Source: Deltaproteobacteria bacterium GWC2_55_46 | GTDB lineage: Bacteria > Desulfobacterota > GWC2-55-46 | Reading direction: 5' to 3' | Length of the DNA stretch: 64,000 bases | Assembly: GCA_001595385.3 (NCBI GenBank) | Contig: LVEI03000001.1 | Coordinates: 62,001 to 126,000, forward strand | Shown here: one piece after another, positions 29,807 to 48,814 of the stretch | How the letters are laid out: every line of letters starts with the position of its first letter | Position numbering within the stretch: the first letter of the stretch is position 1 | The notes under the pieces: model-generated | Seen by the model: only the letters and a program-made list of their open reading frames with translations | Database searches by the model: none | Told to the model about the DNA's origin: nothing | Program-made: the position numbers and the translations under genes

Positions 29807-29824
29807 GAGTCCAGGGATGGACTC
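29807..29824 (+). promoter_or_regulatory. GGA-loop hairpin in the csrA leader (possible CsrA site)
   Basis: GAGTCCA-GGGA-TGGACTC forms a perfect 7-bp stem with GGA in its loop, 25 nt before the csrA start. A second GGA lies in the csrA ribosome-binding site (GGGAGGG). CsrA is known to bind such paired sites to repress its own translation. TTA and a run of A follow rather than T, so a terminator is unlikely. The role is inferred. Confidence 0.55.
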
Positions 29825-29849
29825 TTAAAAAAAAGCCAGGGAGGGCGAA

Positions 29850-30077
29850 ATGCTTGTACTGACAAGGAAGTCGGGAGAAGGGATAAGGATCGGCGATGAT
29901 ATAAAGCTCATCGTCGTTGAAGTGAAGGAAAACCATGTGAAGCTGGGCATAGAGGCCCCGCAGAGCTGCCCGGTGCACAGGGAGGAGATATACCTCAGGA
30001 TACAGGAGGATAACCTCAAAGCGGCGGGCCTGCCCGGGGATATCGCAGACGCCTTGAAAGGATTCATGAAAAAATGA
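29850..30077 (+). CDS. csrA: translational regulator CsrA
   Basis: CsrA is a small RNA-binding dimer that blocks translation by binding GGA motifs. It has 75 aa with the standard start Met-Leu-Val-Leu-Thr-Arg-Lys-x-Gly-Glu and the Val-His-Arg-Glu-Glu-Ile-Tyr segment carrying the RNA-binding arginine. It overlaps fliW by 4 nt, the linkage seen where FliW antagonises CsrA. The fliC leader at 47521 holds a likely target. Confidence 0.97.
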
Positions 30078-30526
30078 ACGTAGCCGCCAATACCGCTTTA
30101 CAGGTAAGTTTTCCCACAAGCCGCTTCGGGCAGGTCTCGGTCGCCGAGGACAGGATAATCCAGTTCGTACATGGGATGCCTGGGTTCGAGAGGCTGAGAA
30201 GGTTCGTCCTCATCGACCACGACCAGGAGGGCATGTTCAGGTGGCTGCAGTCCGCTGAAGACCCGGGGGTAGCGTTCCTCCTGACCGACCCGTGCGCCTT
30301 CAAGCCCGGGTTTTCGGTCCCATTGAAGAAAGGCGAGACCGAGGCGCTTGGGGCCTCTGGTAATGAGAGCCTTTTGACCCTCGTCATGGTCTGCGTCTCC
30401 AAGAACAAGCGCGAGATAAGCCTGAACCTCAAGGGGCCGGTCATCTTCAACGCCGATAACATGAGGGCCGTCCAGTGCGTTATAGACAGGGACGACTATC
30501 CCTCAAGCTTCCTCATCAAGGTCTGA
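30074..30526 (+). CDS. fliW: flagellar assembly factor FliW
   Basis: FliW binds cytoplasmic flagellin and, when flagellin has been exported, binds CsrA and relieves its repression of flagellin synthesis. It has 150 aa: one FliW beta-barrel domain with Phe-x-x-Gly-Met-Pro-Gly-Phe-Glu near 35-40 and Phe-Leu-Leu-Thr-Asp-Pro. It is translationally coupled to csrA (ATGA overlap). Confidence 0.95.
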
Positions 30527-42820: not shown

Positions 42821-44851
42821 ATGCTCAGCCTTTATACCCTTTTCCACTGTAACCTCGCCTTCTCTTCCATCCCGAGGGAGCACTTCCCGGCGATAATCGA
42901 GAGGTGCTACGCGCCGATACTCGCTCTCGCTGAGAAGGGCTTCCCGGTAGCCCTGGAGATGACCGGCTGGACCCTTAAAGAGGTGAACAGGATCGACCCG
43001 GCCTTTCTGGAAAGGCTCCGGTCGTTATTGCACGATGGAAAATGCGAGTTCATAGGATCGGGCTTTTCACAGGCCATATTGCCTCTCATCCCAGCCGAGG
43101 TGAACAGGTGGAACCTTGAGCTTGGAAATAAATATTACCATGACCTGCTGGGCAGGAGGCCGAGGATAGCCCTCGTGAACGAGCAGACCTTCTCAAGGGG
43201 GATAGTAGACCTCTACAGAGACGCAGGGTATGAGGCCCTGATAATGGACTGGAACAACTCATTTCAGCATAACAGGTATCCAAAGGAATATAAGTATTAC
43301 CCGCAGAGGGCCGCGGGCCTTTCTTCCGACATAGACGTCATCTGGAGCCATTCCATCGCCTTCCAGAAGTTCCAGAGGTGCGTGCACGGCGAGATAAGCG
43401 AAGCCGAGTACCTTGATTATCTCTTCTCTCATGCCTCCACCGGAGAGCGCGGCTTCCTCGTCTACAGTAACGACGCGGAGGTCTTTAGCTACAGGCCCGG
43501 CGGAGAGCCTACGAAAGAGGACGAGTACTTAAGGATATCCGCGCTCCTTGAGAAGATAGCGGCAGACCCACGGGCCTCGCTTGTAACCCCGGGAGGGCTT
43601 CTCAAGTCCCTGAAGGGTAACCCTGACTCCGGCAACATCATTCAGCTTGAATCGGCTGAAACGCCCATAGTCTGTAAAAAGCAGGAGAAGTATAACCCTC
43701 TTCGCTGGGCGGCAACCGGCAGGGACAGCGTACATCTCAATACCGAATGCCACAAGGTCTATGAGAACCTGAAGGCCCTCATAAGGCAGGGCGCCCTTGA
43801 GAAGGAGGCGATCGATGACTTCAAGGAAGTACTATGCGACCTGTGGGGGAGTGACTTCAGGACAAATACCATAGATGAGAAGTACGCGTACTTTCAGAAC
43901 AGGCTCGGTTGGCTGAAGATGGAGACAGAGCGCCTCCTCGGGAACCACCAGCACAGGACCCCTCTTTTGGCCTGGGTATACGGCAGCAGCACAGTCGCTC
44001 ACGCGCCCTCTACCCCGGACGAGGAAGAAGGCACAAGCGTCTCCGGAGAGTTCAGGCCAGAGGCGGTCTCGTCGGAGAACGTTCTCAAGGTATGCACCCC
44101 GAAAGTCCATGCCGAGTTTATCGCTAACAAGGGCTATGCGCTTAAGTCGCTTGTCTTCCCTGACGTTTCAACCTCGCCGCTACTCGGCACATTGCCCCAC
44201 GGCCACTATGAGGACATAAGGCTCGGCGCGGATTTCTTCAGCGGCCACCTCATCCACACCACTCGCGAAGGAAAGCAGACTACCGACTTGATGAAATCGC
44301 AAGTCGAGGTAAAAGAAGAACGTGAAAAGGTGAGCGTGATCATAAAAAGCCAGCTTGGGATAGGTATCCTCTGGAAGAGATACGAGATCTCAAGGTCTGC
44401 CCCGGAGATTAAGCTTACCTACAGGCTAAAGGTCAACGGTCTTGTGGCCTCGTCGCTCCGGGCTGGGATATTTACGCTCGTTCCTTCCGGCTTTGACCGC
44501 GACGATCTCTGGTTCGAGACGGTCAACGGCGGGGCCGGGGCCGAGAGGTTCTACCTCAAGGGGCATGATCTGTCGCACGAAGAGCCGGTAAGCCAGAGCG
44601 TGTCGGCGAGCTCATGCCTCGGCGCCACCGAAGGCTGGATAAGGATAGGAGACAGCAGGAAATCTATTGAGATATCTACCGACAAGTCCAGGCTCTATAC
44701 TGTTCCGATGATAAGGTACATGGAGCTTCCGGGTGAGGACTCGTTCTTCATGAGGGTATATCATTCTCTCGGCGAGTTCGACGATACCGCATGGTGGGTC
44801 TGGCGGGGCTACAATGAGGCTGAATTTACCGTGAAGGCCAAAAGGAGCTGA
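42821..44851 (+). CDS. GH57-like glycoside hydrolase family protein
   Basis: A 676-aa protein with an N-terminal GH57-type barrel (about 1-330): Phe-His-Cys-Asn-Leu-Ala-Phe near 8-14, Val-Asn-Glu121 matching the nucleophile region, and Asn-Asp218-Ala-Glu-Val-Phe matching the acid/base region. A long C-terminal beta-rich part (about 380-676) follows. GH57 enzymes normally act on alpha-glucans; in this operon it may trim or transfer a glycan. No signal peptide, so cytoplasmic. It starts with no gap after the IolB-like gene. Confidence 0.75.
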   Translation: MLSLYTLFHCNLAFSSIPREHFPAIIERCYAPILALAEKGFPVALEMTGWTLKEVNRIDPAFLERLRSLLHDGKCEFIGSGFSQAILPLIPAEVNRWNLELGNKYYHDLLGRRPRIALVNEQTFSRGIVDLYRDAGYEALIMDWNNSFQHNRYPKEYKYYPQRAAGLSSDIDVIWSHSIAFQKFQRCVHGEISEAEYLDYLFSHASTGERGFLVYSNDAEVFSYRPGGEPTKEDEYLRISALLEKIAADPRASLVTPGGLLKSLKGNPDSGNIIQLESAETPIVCKKQEKYNPLRWAATGRDSVHLNTECHKVYENLKALIRQGALEKEAIDDFKEVLCDLWGSDFRTNTIDEKYAYFQNRLGWLKMETERLLGNHQHRTPLLAWVYGSSTVAHAPSTPDEEEGTSVSGEFRPEAVSSENVLKVCTPKVHAEFIANKGYALKSLVFPDVSTSPLLGTLPHGHYEDIRLGADFFSGHLIHTTREGKQTTDLMKSQVEVKEEREKVSVIIKSQLGIGILWKRYEISRSAPEIKLTYRLKVNGLVASSLRAGIFTLVPSGFDRDDLWFETVNGGAGAERFYLKGHDLSHEEPVSQSVSASSCLGATEGWIRIGDSRKSIEISTDKSRLYTVPMIRYMELPGEDSFFMRVYHSLGEFDDTAWWVWRGYNEAEFTVKAKRS

Positions 44852-44856
44852 AAAAG

Positions 44857-46758
44857 ATGGATATTCTTGACAAGAATATCGAAGCGATACGTAAGAATAA
44901 CATGGACCTGGCTCTGCGCCTTTCCGGCTATAACGGAGAACCGGTCCCGATAGAGCAGTCCAGGTCCGGGGCGCCGACATTTAAATACCAGGGCCGCCTC
45001 TTTCACAGCTCCTATGACCCGGTGAAGGAGGCTCTTTTGCAGGCCGACGAGATTCTCTCCAGAAAGCCCGGCTGGGTGCTCCTTTTCGGGTTTGGCTGCG
45101 GACACCTCGCTCAGGCGCTCCTGAAAAAAGGCAGGAAGAACATCATCGCCTACGAGCCATCTGCCGAGATACTCGCTGGTGCCGTTGCCGGATGCGACCT
45201 CGCACGGCTTTTAAGCGAAGTAGACGTCTACGATAATCTTCCGGAGTTTCTCGCCAGGGTAAGGTGCATAGACTGCTTTGAGGACATATTGTGCTACAGC
45301 ACAAACCCATATAAGGCTGCTTTCCCACGGGAGTTGCTTGATTTCATAAGCAAGGTCAACAACGCCCAGACGATGAACAAGGCAGGCGTTTGTACCGATA
45401 TAAGCTCCAGGGATAAATGGGTCGAGAACTACCTTGAAAATATGAAGTATTTCCCGGCTTGTCCGCCTGTGGATACGCTTAAAGGCGGCTTTCACGGCGT
45501 ACCGATGATAATAGCCGGGGCAGGCCCTTCGCTTAAAAAGAATGCGCACCTTCTGAAGGAAGCGAAAGGCAAGGCCGTGATCGTCGCGGCTATCACCGCC
45601 TATAAGCCGCTCCTGAAGTACGGCGTTGTCCCGGATTTCATCATAGCCTCGGAGAAGGTAGACCTCCCTGAGTACTTCGCATATGATGAGAACGACCTTG
45701 AGACAAGGCTCATACTCGGGGACGCCTCGCACCCGGATATGTTCACAAGGCAGGTCGGCGGGAAGTTCGTTTTTTTCAGCGCCTACTCTGCCCTGAGCCA
45801 GGAGCTTGCGCGCCATTGGGGCTCTCATTACTTTCCGTCGATCGGCGGAAGCGTTACGACCGCGGCCCTTGATATAGGCGTGATGTTCGGTTGCGACCCA
45901 GTCATCTTCGTGGGGCAGGACCTCTCCTTTGGCGAGGGGGCCACGCACGCGCCCGGAGGCGTTTACGTCAGCCAGGATATAAAGATAGACAGGGAAAAGG
46001 GAGAGGTCCTGATCGAAGAGGATTATGTGACCCTCAAGGAGAAGGCAAAGAGCAGGTTCAATCTCCTGTGGCTCAAGGGCCTTGATGGGAAGCCGGTGGC
46101 GAGCAAGTACGACTGGGTGACATTCCATCAATGGTTTGAGGACTATATGGCGCATATGAAGAAGATTGGAAACGCTACAAGGGTGCTTAACGCTACCGAA
46201 GGCGGCGCGTATATCGAAGGCATGGAGCACGTGACCCTCAGAGAAGCTCTTGAGAGGCATATAAGGGAAGATCTTCCGATAGAAAATATAATCCGGCAGG
46301 CCGTCGCTGGAAGGCAGGCCCCTGATATTAAAGCGGTCGCCGCGTCTCTGGAGTCCATGCAAAAGGGGCTAAAGGAAATGCGCGTTTCAGCCGATTCTAT
46401 AGTCAAGGAAGCGGAGCAGATAAGGAAGTCGGTCACCGGGGGGCAGGCAGGCCCGGATGCCATTAAAAGCGCGGATAGGATAAAAAGGCTCGAGGATAAG
46501 CTCTTCAAGGACGCGGAGAAGTCGACTTTTATATGGGAATCGCTCATGACGACCACTTACAAGCTCAAGGAATACCTTAGACGACGAGAGGGCGGGGAAA
46601 ACGAGGCGAGTGTCAGTAAGGAGATTGAGACCATCTCCGAGGCCTACAGGGATGTTTCAAGGATGTGCGGACGCTATGCACAGGTCCTCTGGGGCTCGGC
46701 AGAGGGGTTGAAGAAAGCTCAAGGCTCTTGTGGCCGGGCAAGCGTTGCCGCCTTATGA
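44857..46758 (+). CDS. maf: motility accessory factor Maf (flagellin nonulosonate transferase)
   Basis: Maf proteins (DUF115/6-hydroxymethylpterin pyrophosphokinase-like fold) transfer pseudaminic or legionaminic acid to flagellin. This 633-aa protein has an N-terminal domain (about 1-185), the core with Ile-Ile-Ala-Gly-Ala-Gly-Pro-Ser-Leu-Lys-Lys-Asn near 218-229 and Gly-Gly-Ser-Val-Thr-Thr-Ala-Ala, Val-Gly-Gln-Asp-Leu-Ser, and a helical C-terminal domain. It lies last among the pathway enzymes and shortly before fliC. Confidence 0.92.
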   Translation: MDILDKNIEAIRKNNMDLALRLSGYNGEPVPIEQSRSGAPTFKYQGRLFHSSYDPVKEALLQADEILSRKPGWVLLFGFGCGHLAQALLKKGRKNIIAYEPSAEILAGAVAGCDLARLLSEVDVYDNLPEFLARVRCIDCFEDILCYSTNPYKAAFPRELLDFISKVNNAQTMNKAGVCTDISSRDKWVENYLENMKYFPACPPVDTLKGGFHGVPMIIAGAGPSLKKNAHLLKEAKGKAVIVAAITAYKPLLKYGVVPDFIIASEKVDLPEYFAYDENDLETRLILGDASHPDMFTRQVGGKFVFFSAYSALSQELARHWGSHYFPSIGGSVTTAALDIGVMFGCDPVIFVGQDLSFGEGATHAPGGVYVSQDIKIDREKGEVLIEEDYVTLKEKAKSRFNLLWLKGLDGKPVASKYDWVTFHQWFEDYMAHMKKIGNATRVLNATEGGAYIEGMEHVTLREALERHIREDLPIENIIRQAVAGRQAPDIKAVAASLESMQKGLKEMRVSADSIVKEAEQIRKSVTGGQAGPDAIKSADRIKRLEDKLFKDAEKSTFIWESLMTTTYKLKEYLRRREGGENEASVSKEIETISEAYRDVSRMCGRYAQVLWGSAEGLKKAQGSCGRASVAAL

Positions 46759-46781: not shown

Positions 46782-47384
46782 ATGACCCAAGTTTACCTGG
46801 ATGGCATAAGGCTGGATTTTGAGGATAAGGGCAATGATTCCACCATCGGCGAGCTTATCGACGCCGTGGAAAGGGACCTCACTGGCAACAGGAGGTTCGT
46901 AATGGAGCTGTGGGTCGACGGCGAAAGGCTCTCTGAATGGAGGGGGAGCAAGGTGCTCAAAAGGCCCATTTCGGGCTATGAGGACTTCAAGCTCAACACC
47001 GCCTCGATGGAAGAGGTCGCTCTCGAAGGGCTCGACCTTGTTCAGGAGTATATCAGGGTCACAAGGGATAACGTCCCTTTATGCGTCGGGGAATTGAGGG
47101 TAGGGGGCAGCACCAGGGCAGACTCTGCCTTCGCGTCCATCTTCGATGGGCTTGTAGAGATCTTGAGGACGATGGACGCCCTTGCCAGGGGCGGCGAGAA
47201 GTACAATATGGACCTCTTCATGGAGAATCCGGCCTCGTACTTCAATGCGATAATGAGGTGCCTTGAGGAGATGAAGCAGGCCAAAGAGAACGGCGACAGC
47301 GTCCTTCTGGCCGACCTCCTCGAATACGAACTCCAGCCCTTCCTGGAGGCCATGGAGGAGAGGATTTTTCACTTTAACGCGTAG
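46782..47384 (+). CDS. unrecognised protein between maf and fliC
   Basis: A 200-aa acidic soluble protein. Residues 1-60 look like a small alpha/beta domain (strand Val-Tyr-Leu-Asp-Gly-Ile-Arg-Leu-Asp, helix, strand with Leu-Trp-Val-Asp-Gly-Glu-Arg-Leu), perhaps of beta-grasp type; residues 75-200 are helical. I do not recognise the family. The start at 46782 follows GGAGTGAGG; longer in-frame versions run back into maf. It is the last gene before the fliC promoter, suggesting a role with Maf or flagellin. Confidence 0.75.
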   Translation: MTQVYLDGIRLDFEDKGNDSTIGELIDAVERDLTGNRRFVMELWVDGERLSEWRGSKVLKRPISGYEDFKLNTASMEEVALEGLDLVQEYIRVTRDNVPLCVGELRVGGSTRADSAFASIFDGLVEILRTMDALARGGEKYNMDLFMENPASYFNAIMRCLEEMKQAKENGDSVLLADLLEYELQPFLEAMEERIFHFNA

Positions 47385-47400
47385 AGGATCGATTTTGCCC

Positions 47401-47428
47401 TCAAGTCGTAGCTCTGGGGCGCCGATAA
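47401..47428 (+). promoter_or_regulatory. sigma-28 promoter of fliC
   Basis: TCAAGTCG-N12-GCCGATAA: the -10 is the exact sigma-28 consensus and the -35 is close. It leaves a leader of about 130 nt before fliC. Confidence 0.85.
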
Positions 47429-47435
47429 AGTAACA

Positions 47436-47562
47436 AAGGATTCAGACAAACAGGGCCGGAAGGGAGGAAGAACAGAGTTAAAGGCCGGGTGCTGATACCC
47501 TGGAAGCAAAAAACAAAAAACGGCAAGGATGCCGGATCAAAACACTAAGGAGGGTATTACAA
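47436..47562 (+). promoter_or_regulatory. fliC leader with CsrA-type binding sites
   Basis: The leader has eight GGA motifs (at 47438, 47458, 47463, 47466, 47502, 47527, 47534, 47549). The key one is in the loop of a hairpin, CGGCA-AGGA-TGCCG (47521-47534), whose core GCAAGGATGC matches the known CsrA consensus ACARGGAUGU. A second lies in the ribosome site AAGGAGGG (47547-47554). This two-site layout matches the B. subtilis hag leader controlled by CsrA and FliW; both regulators are encoded at 29850-30526. Confidence 0.7.
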
Positions 47563-48390
47563 ATGTCACTTACCATCAATACCAACGTATCGGCTCTTAT
47601 CGCTCAGCAGAACCTGGCTACTTCCAACGCACAGCTCAAGGTAAGCGTACAGAGGCTTTCTTCCGGTTACAGGGTCAACAGCGCAGCCGACGACGCCGCG
47701 GGCCTCGGCAGGGCCGACCAGCTGAGGAGCCAGTCCAGGATGATCCAGGCCTCCATCAGGAACATCAACGACGGCGTCAGCGCCATGGAAGTGAGCGACA
47801 AGGCCGCGGAGCAGATAACCAATATCGTGACCAGGATGGGTGAGCTCGCCGCTTCCGCCGCGCAGGGCACCCTGGATTCGACCAACAGGTCCTATTACTC
47901 CGATGAGTTCGACACGCTCATCAACGAGATAGACAGGATAGCCAACACCACGGAGTTCGGCGGCTACAAGCTCATAAACGGCAACGAGACGTCGATATCC
48001 ATGTATATCGGCTTCAAGACCTCGGCCGACGACAGGCTTACCGTCACTCTCGCGGCCCTTACCGCCGGTACGGCCCTGGGCCTGTCAGCCGGCCTTCTCG
48101 ACACCCAGGCTGGCGCCCTGAGCGCCATCAGCTCTGTAAGCACCGCGCTCAAGACCATAAATGACGCCCGCGCGGTATACGGCGCTTCGACCAACAGGCT
48201 TTCAGCCGCTCTTAGCAACCTCCAGGTGACCTACACCAACTACCAGGCCGCCGAGTCGAGGATCAGGGACGCTGACTTCGCCTTCGAGACCGCGCAGTAC
48301 ACCAGGAACCAGATAATGGTCCAGGCCGGCACATCGGTCCTTGCGCAGGCGAACTCGATACCGCAGAACGTGCTCTCGCTCCTCAGGTAA
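47563..48390 (+). CDS. fliC: flagellin FliC
   Basis: The filament subunit, 275 aa, near the small end of the family. The N-terminal D0/D1 (Ile-Asn-Thr-Asn-Val-Ser-Ala-Leu, Leu-Ser-Ser-Gly-Tyr-Arg-Val-Asn-Ser-Ala-Ala-Asp-Asp-Ala-Ala-Gly-Leu) and C-terminal Asn-Ser-Ile-Pro-Gln-Asn-Val-Leu-Ser-Leu-Leu are conserved. Only about 60 residues remain for the surface domain (about 140-200, Thr/Ser/Ala-rich), where Maf would attach sugar. Sigma-28 promoter and CsrA-type leader upstream. Confidence 0.97.
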   Translation: MSLTINTNVSALIAQQNLATSNAQLKVSVQRLSSGYRVNSAADDAAGLGRADQLRSQSRMIQASIRNINDGVSAMEVSDKAAEQITNIVTRMGELAASAAQGTLDSTNRSYYSDEFDTLINEIDRIANTTEFGGYKLINGNETSISMYIGFKTSADDRLTVTLAALTAGTALGLSAGLLDTQAGALSAISSVSTALKTINDARAVYGASTNRLSAALSNLQVTYTNYQAAESRIRDADFAFETAQYTRNQIMVQAGTSVLAQANSIPQNVLSLLR

Positions 48391-48424
48391 TAAGCGCACC
48401 ATTCAACAAGAGCCTCAAACGGGC

Positions 48425-48450
48425 GCTGGGAGGCCGCAGGGCCTCCCAGC
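48425..48450 (+). other. strong intercistronic hairpin between fliC and flaG
   Basis: GCTGGGAGGCC-GCAG-GGCCTCCCAGC is a perfect 11-bp stem. No T-run follows and the flaG ribosome site comes 11 nt later. It probably stabilises the fliC message or partly stops transcription, which would raise flagellin over cap proteins. Confidence 0.65.
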
Positions 48451-48469
48451 CCACCCATGAGGAGGTAGT

Positions 48470-48814
48470 ATGGGCATAGATATAAGCGCCATCAATTCGA
48501 TCCAGAACGAGTACGCCGAGCACCTTAAAAAGGCTCAGGTACGGACACCTGAGGCAGTACGCGAACAGGGGACATCCCCAAAAGACGGCCCTGCCGGAGA
48601 GTTGGAGGCCGCAGCAGCCGACGTCCAGATATTTTTAAAAAGGCTTAATGCGGAACTGAGGTTCGAGGTCGACGGCGAGCTAAACGAGGTGCTCGTCAAG
48701 ATTGTAGACCCTGAGACCAACGAGGTCATAAGGCAGATCCCGGCAGAGGAGCTTATTACGATAAGGAAGAGGATGAAGGAGCTTGTAGGCGTCCTCTACA
48801 GGAACAATACCTAA
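48470..48814 (+). CDS. flaG: flagellar protein FlaG
   Basis: A 114-aa FlaG-family protein with a variable N-terminus and a conserved C-terminal domain (about 50-110): Leu-Arg-Phe-Glu-Val-Asp-Gly-Glu-Leu-Asn-Glu and Val-Ile-Arg-Gln-Ile-Pro-Ala-Glu-Glu. FlaG affects filament length in other bacteria. It is placed between fliC and fliD, as is common. Confidence 0.92.
   Translation: MGIDISAINSIQNEYAEHLKKAQVRTPEAVREQGTSPKDGPAGELEAAAADVQIFLKRLNAELRFEVDGELNEVLVKIVDPETNEVIRQIPAEELITIRKRMKELVGVLYRNNT

Follow-up and report, generated by a model that had tools for sequence, protein, structure and literature searches.

A conserved leader hairpin and a predicted CsrA/FliW flagellin checkpoint in Deltaproteobacteria bacterium GWC2_55_46

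The fliC and csrA-fliW loci

The window, by which we mean the whole 64,000-nucleotide stretch of contig LVEI03000001.1 of Deltaproteobacteria bacterium GWC2_55_46 that was analysed, carries a flagellin gene, fliC, followed by flaG, fliD, and fliS, and a csrA-fliW pair that is preceded by open reading frames reading as flgK and flgL (Table 1). The position of a sigma-28-like element is consistent with a fliC transcript start near 47436, and CCGATA is also found upstream of most of the relatives' flagellin leaders. Just upstream of the flagellin region, at 42821-46758, are the genes for a protein with a GH57 domain and for a large one that is MptE-like (Maf-type), and these neighbours suggest that the flagellin may be glycosylated.

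Table 1. Genes and predicted regulatory features in the window
Feature	Position	Strand	Basis
csrA SD hairpin GCCAGGGAGGGC, candidate CsrA autoregulatory site	29835..29846	+	30/30 csrA loci; weak covariation
csrA	29850..30077	+	75 aa; Pfam CsrA 88 bits; R44, I51, N55
ACAAGGAAG in csrA codons 5-7, candidate CsrA site	29862..29870	+	invariant synonymous codons
fliW	30074..30526	+	150 aa; Pfam FliW 114.6 bits; ATGA overlap with csrA
Sigma-28-like promoter, TCAAG (47401) and GCCGATAA (47421-47428)	47401..47428	+	sequence
Predicted fliC 5' leader (start predicted)	47436..47562	+	placed from promoter and ATG positions
Upstream GGCC...AAGGGAGG...GGCC element, SD-like, unproven	47454..47486	+	family sequence conservation; helix not significant
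Proximal hairpin with CANGGANG hexaloop, predicted high-affinity CsrA site	47521..47534	+	leader conservation, outer-pair covariation
SD AAGGAGGG, GGA 47549-47551, predicted second CsrA site	47547..47554	+	GGA-GGA spacing in 33 leaders
Flagellin gene fliC (ATG at 47563)	47563..48390	+	275 aa; Pfam Flagellin_N 130.4 bits, Flagellin_C 86.6 bits

The original prediction was that a hairpin CGGCA-AGGA-TGCCG with GGA in its loop lies before fliC, about 15 nt from a GGA-containing ribosome site, and that its core fits the CsrA consensus. The hairpin, CGGCAAGGATGCCG, is present as described, with its loop GGA at 47527-47529, and it ends 12 nt before the SD and 14 nt before the SD GGA, which leaves 19 nt between the two GGA triplets. 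Its stem is GC-rich and has a free energy of -7.5 kcal/mol when folded alone. When it is read as a hexaloop, the predicted loop is CANGGANG, which is the loop published as a high-affinity site for CsrA/RsmE. It had also been noted that six more GGA motifs occur in the leader. The count is right, because the leader has eight GGA triplets including those of the loop and the SD, but GGA abundance was dropped as evidence for CsrA control since dinucleotide shuffles of the leader have a mean of 5.5 and at least eight are found in 8.7% of them (p 0.087).

The overlap of csrA and fliW that had been noted at 29850-30526 was borne out, with an ATGA shared by the two genes and Pfam matches of their products to CsrA and FliW. 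CsrA is 75 residues long compared to the 53 positions of the Pfam domain, and R44, I51, and N55 are present in all 30 CsrA proteins, namely, that of the window and those of 29 relatives. Among solved structures, the chain nearest to CsrA is 1t3o from B. subtilis, and those nearest to FliW are 2aj7 and the FliW of 5dmb, 5dmd, and 5jak. Among 59 relatives the identical 37 carry both csrA and fliW, with one csrA each. V51 and N55 of C. jejuni CsrA are required for FliW binding and V51 is replaced by isoleucine in other species (PMC7829508), while N55 of G. sulfurreducens CsrA is likewise required for FliW binding (PMC13407953).

Conservation, folding, and specificity of the hairpin

Flagellin relatives from a genome contig search and from the 59 related genomes gave 33 distinct leaders from the order. 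In all 33, GGCANGGANGCC lies upstream of a GGAGGG SD, and the distance between the loop GGA and the SD GGA is 16-21 nt with a mode of 19; these counts are not independent because the relatives in the order share ancestry. The hairpin was also present in 10 of 10 more divergent leaders that were located by protein similarity, five within the order and five in other families of its class. Among 27 distinct hairpins, the two N positions are the only ones at which the CANGGANG loop changes, and therefore the A and U of the fifth pair as originally drawn do not form a conserved pair and the hexaloop is the best reading. The outer stem pair varies as C-G, G-C, U-A, and U-G with 8 double changes compared to 1.7 in shuffles, and 97.2% of cells are paired in the covariation test compared to at most 68% in slid controls. 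The three inner pairs give no evidence of covariation because they are invariant in the set. Where flagellin genes are in tandem (L079, L101), the upstream leader has been replaced and the hairpin and SD have been kept.

A hairpin like this could act in cis without CsrA, as a stabiliser of the mRNA 5' end, a barrier to RNase, or a translational spacer, and its GC-rich stem in the 5' UTR of a gene that is normally very highly expressed would be in keeping with such a role. A purely structural element, however, has no need for an invariant CA-GGA-G loop that is free only at two N positions, nor for a loop-to-SD GGA distance held at 16-21 nt, and we consider this explanation quite improbable. When the leader is shuffled with its dinucleotides preserved, 0.2% of the shuffles contain a CANGGANG hexaloop closed by four base pairs, and the combination of hairpin, SD, and ATG occurs once in the window where 0.00 is expected.

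Folding of the leader as a single sequence gave a stability no different from that of shuffles (z -0.33), and in the predicted fold an alternative helix, 47493-47501/47551-47559, would itself mask part of the SD. This raises the question of whether the leader is an RNA switch in which the C-rich segment at 47493-47501 pairs with the SD, the SD-like segment at 47460-47467 competes with it, and CsrA is only a modifier. The predicted pairing of UGAUACCCU with AGGGUAUUA agrees with this, as does the complementarity of linker and SD, which averages 11.0 compared to 9.0 in linker shuffles. On the other hand, mean pairing of the SD is 0.49 and changes little, to 0.45, when the linker is shuffled; the pairing is missing in several relatives, and the sequences are too closely related to count as independent. 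Pairing of the linker with the SD was set aside as weak. The upstream GGCC...GGCC helix around (A)AAGGAGGG shows apparent compensatory cases in L101, L105, and L169, but it fails a permutation test (p 0.12-0.14) despite the sequence conservation in the family and is left as unproven. The switch is thus very improbable. RNAalifold applied to the whole leader recovered the proximal hairpin alone. Least credible of all is an intrinsic terminator on the minus strand (CGGCATCCTTGCCG followed by TTTTTT) that would halt antisense transcription, because the terminator scan that matched at 47534-47521 gave 3 sites where 1.1 were expected, and the T-run corresponds to an A-tract that is kept mainly in near relatives; L016, L018, L019, L105, and L169 have lost it but retain the loop.

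To return to the putative CsrA site, the Rfam search gave no match near the gathering score in 47300-48500, and the plasmid collection gave no match. The hairpin motif alone has 38 sites in the genome compared to 14 for the reversed pattern, and it was dropped as a regulon finder since it is too frequent without the SD and ATG. With these included (GGCANGGANGCC-N5-30-AAGGAGG-N4-12-ATG), a search of 63 genomes of the class found 37 places in 32 genomes, of which 35 precede flagellin genes; the two others are L202 and L213, and the reversed pattern gave no match. The RNA element is thus conserved across the class and nearly restricted to flagellin genes. A looser pattern matched in 67 of 395 genomes of the phylum, with 9 matches for the reversed control, and many of its matches outside the class precede flagellin genes (for example, L232-L235, L240-L243, L253, and L258). 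In Desulfuromusa kysingii DSM 7343 (L041), gggcAAGGAAgccc is found at -40. In beta-, gamma-, and alphaproteobacterial leaders among the farther genome contig loci, the CANGGANG hairpin upstream of the SD is absent.

Among phylum genomes with a flagellin domain, the element precedes a verified flagellin gene in 30 of 180 that are FliW-positive and in 2 of 63 that are FliW-negative (p 0.005), and without the class the association has a p of 0.046, with the statistics ignoring kinship and the counts compiled by hand from listings with a pattern that misses other stems. We regard this association as supporting evidence only. Two flagellin leaders in the phylum have the element in genomes in which no FliW was found (G106, G120), and in G041 the element is present while both csrA and fliW were unfound in an assembly that is 92% complete. 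These cases, like the single-sequence fold, weigh against the CsrA/FliW reading.

Some further observations were made on flagellin copies. The relative G031 (L101, L200) has three tandem flagellin genes, each preceded by the hairpin and SD. On the minus strand of L174, upstream of position 430, another flagellin copy in a relative is preceded by the hairpin and SD, but here a minicistron, ATGAAATAA, comes between these and the flagellin ATG, which might point to coupled initiation. Elsewhere in the genome of the window lies what remains of a second flagellin gene, a decayed 3' fragment (L175:1185-1397; G000:C1:2560184-2560393) that is ~83% identical and is without leader or start.

A predicted CsrA/FliW checkpoint on flagellin synthesis

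We propose that the fliC leader serves as an operator with two CsrA sites, from which CsrA is released by FliW, and that FliW is in turn titrated by flagellin; we hold this to be highly likely. One RNA-binding face of a CsrA dimer would hold the loop GGA and the other face the SD GGA, and the bridging dimer would block the ribosome at fliC. FliW, whose gene overlaps csrA, would contact CsrA near N55, in its C-terminal part, and thereby release it, while unsecreted flagellin would titrate FliW. Flagellin would be translated freely only after completion of the hook, once its export is under way. The genome encodes a CsrA whose RNA-binding residues are in place and whose C-terminal part, N55 included, is of the FliW type, a FliW, and a flagellin mRNA with two CsrA-type GGA sites at bridging distance, one of them over the SD. 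The linkage of csrA, fliW, and flagellin and the conservation of the RNA- and FliW-binding residues are plain; binding and repression by CsrA, antagonism by FliW, and the partner switch by flagellin would be expected by analogy with B. subtilis, C. jejuni, and G. sulfurreducens. In the sequences compared, the predicted CsrA/FliW layout finds support in the conservation, covariation, and spacing of the element and in the neighbourhood and co-occurrence of the genes, and the leader hairpin is very probably a new example of the known CsrA/FliW flagellin switch of Bacillus and Campylobacter.

The layout had been likened to that of B. subtilis hag in particular, and this part of the original prediction is weak because Campylobacter flaA is at least as close. 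The flaA CsrA sites are backed by footprints and mutants; two GGA are ~20 nt apart in a CANGGANG-like hexaloop and the ribosome site, the structure is kept through compensatory changes among relatives as it is here, and FliW is the CsrA antagonist, a role predicted for it in our system (PMC4894983). A CsrA dimer bridges best, by the published account, when its sites are 18 nt apart, and those of flaA are 21 nt apart (PMC4894983). The two systems differ in that the SD GGA of flaA is also in a hairpin loop whereas here the SD is outside any conserved hairpin, in that the flaA leader is 45 nt long compared to ~127 nt here, and in that fliW lies away from csrA in the Epsilonproteobacteria whereas the two overlap here (PMC4894983). 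By description, hag also has two CsrA sites, one over the SD, and in B. subtilis FliW antagonises CsrA through the extended C-terminus of CsrA and N55 (Yakhnin 2007, Mukherjee 2011, as cited in PMC7652899). The order flgK-flgL-csrA-fliW is shared with the flgJMNKL-csrA-fliW operon of G. sulfurreducens (PMC11934962, PMC13407953), where an N55-dependent contact of CsrA and FliW has been shown (PMC13407953). That system has been studied for biofilm and electron transfer, and in the available parts of these accounts we found no CsrA site described in a flagellin leader (PMC11934962, PMC13407953). The E. coli glgC leader is similar in that a CsrA dimer binds a high-affinity site in a hairpin loop and a site over the SD, but it works without FliW and CsrA is antagonised by the CsrB and CsrC RNAs (PMC7652899).

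Candidate autoregulation of csrA and implications

It is known in E. coli that csrA is autoregulated. In 30 of 30 csrA loci the csrA SD sits within GCCANGGAGGGC, which is again CANGGANG, and among the 395 genomes of the phylum the motif precedes csrA in 19, of which 11 belong to the order. Covariation of this hairpin is weak because three pairs are invariant and 14 of the 30 loci have an outer pair that does not form. Codons 5-7 of csrA are ACA-AGG-AAG in 28 of 30 loci (T5 is ACA in 30/30, R6 is AGG in 28/30, and K7 is AAG in 30/30), while the adjoining codons vary freely in the 30 loci. The GGA pair at 29840-29842 and 29866-29868 is separated by 23 nt. Conservation of these two sites in the class suggests that CsrA may repress its own synthesis. 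A third CANGGANG-type site, GTCCAGGGATGGAC at 29809-29822, is absent from the csrA leaders of the relatives. In the part of the open-access literature that was available, no report of csrA autoregulation was found for this group.

We can tentatively go further, at somewhat less than an even chance, and suggest that CsrA of this class is mainly a dedicated flagellin regulator that represses itself, with a dimer bridging the two candidate csrA sites, so that csrA, fliW, and flagellin would form one self-limiting circuit. If this is the case, then FliW would increase the synthesis of CsrA along with that of flagellin. It has been proposed that CsrA had its older role in flagellar control (PMC4894983), and our results fit this because csrA and fliW are either both present or both absent here.

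The candidate autoregulation of csrA adds a prediction that would be cheap to test. As judged from the sequences compared, the CsrA/FliW flagellin checkpoint would extend to an uncultured deltaproteobacterial class and would have a specific RNA element there, and the same element before flagellin genes of other families suggests that the checkpoint may reach into further parts of the phylum.
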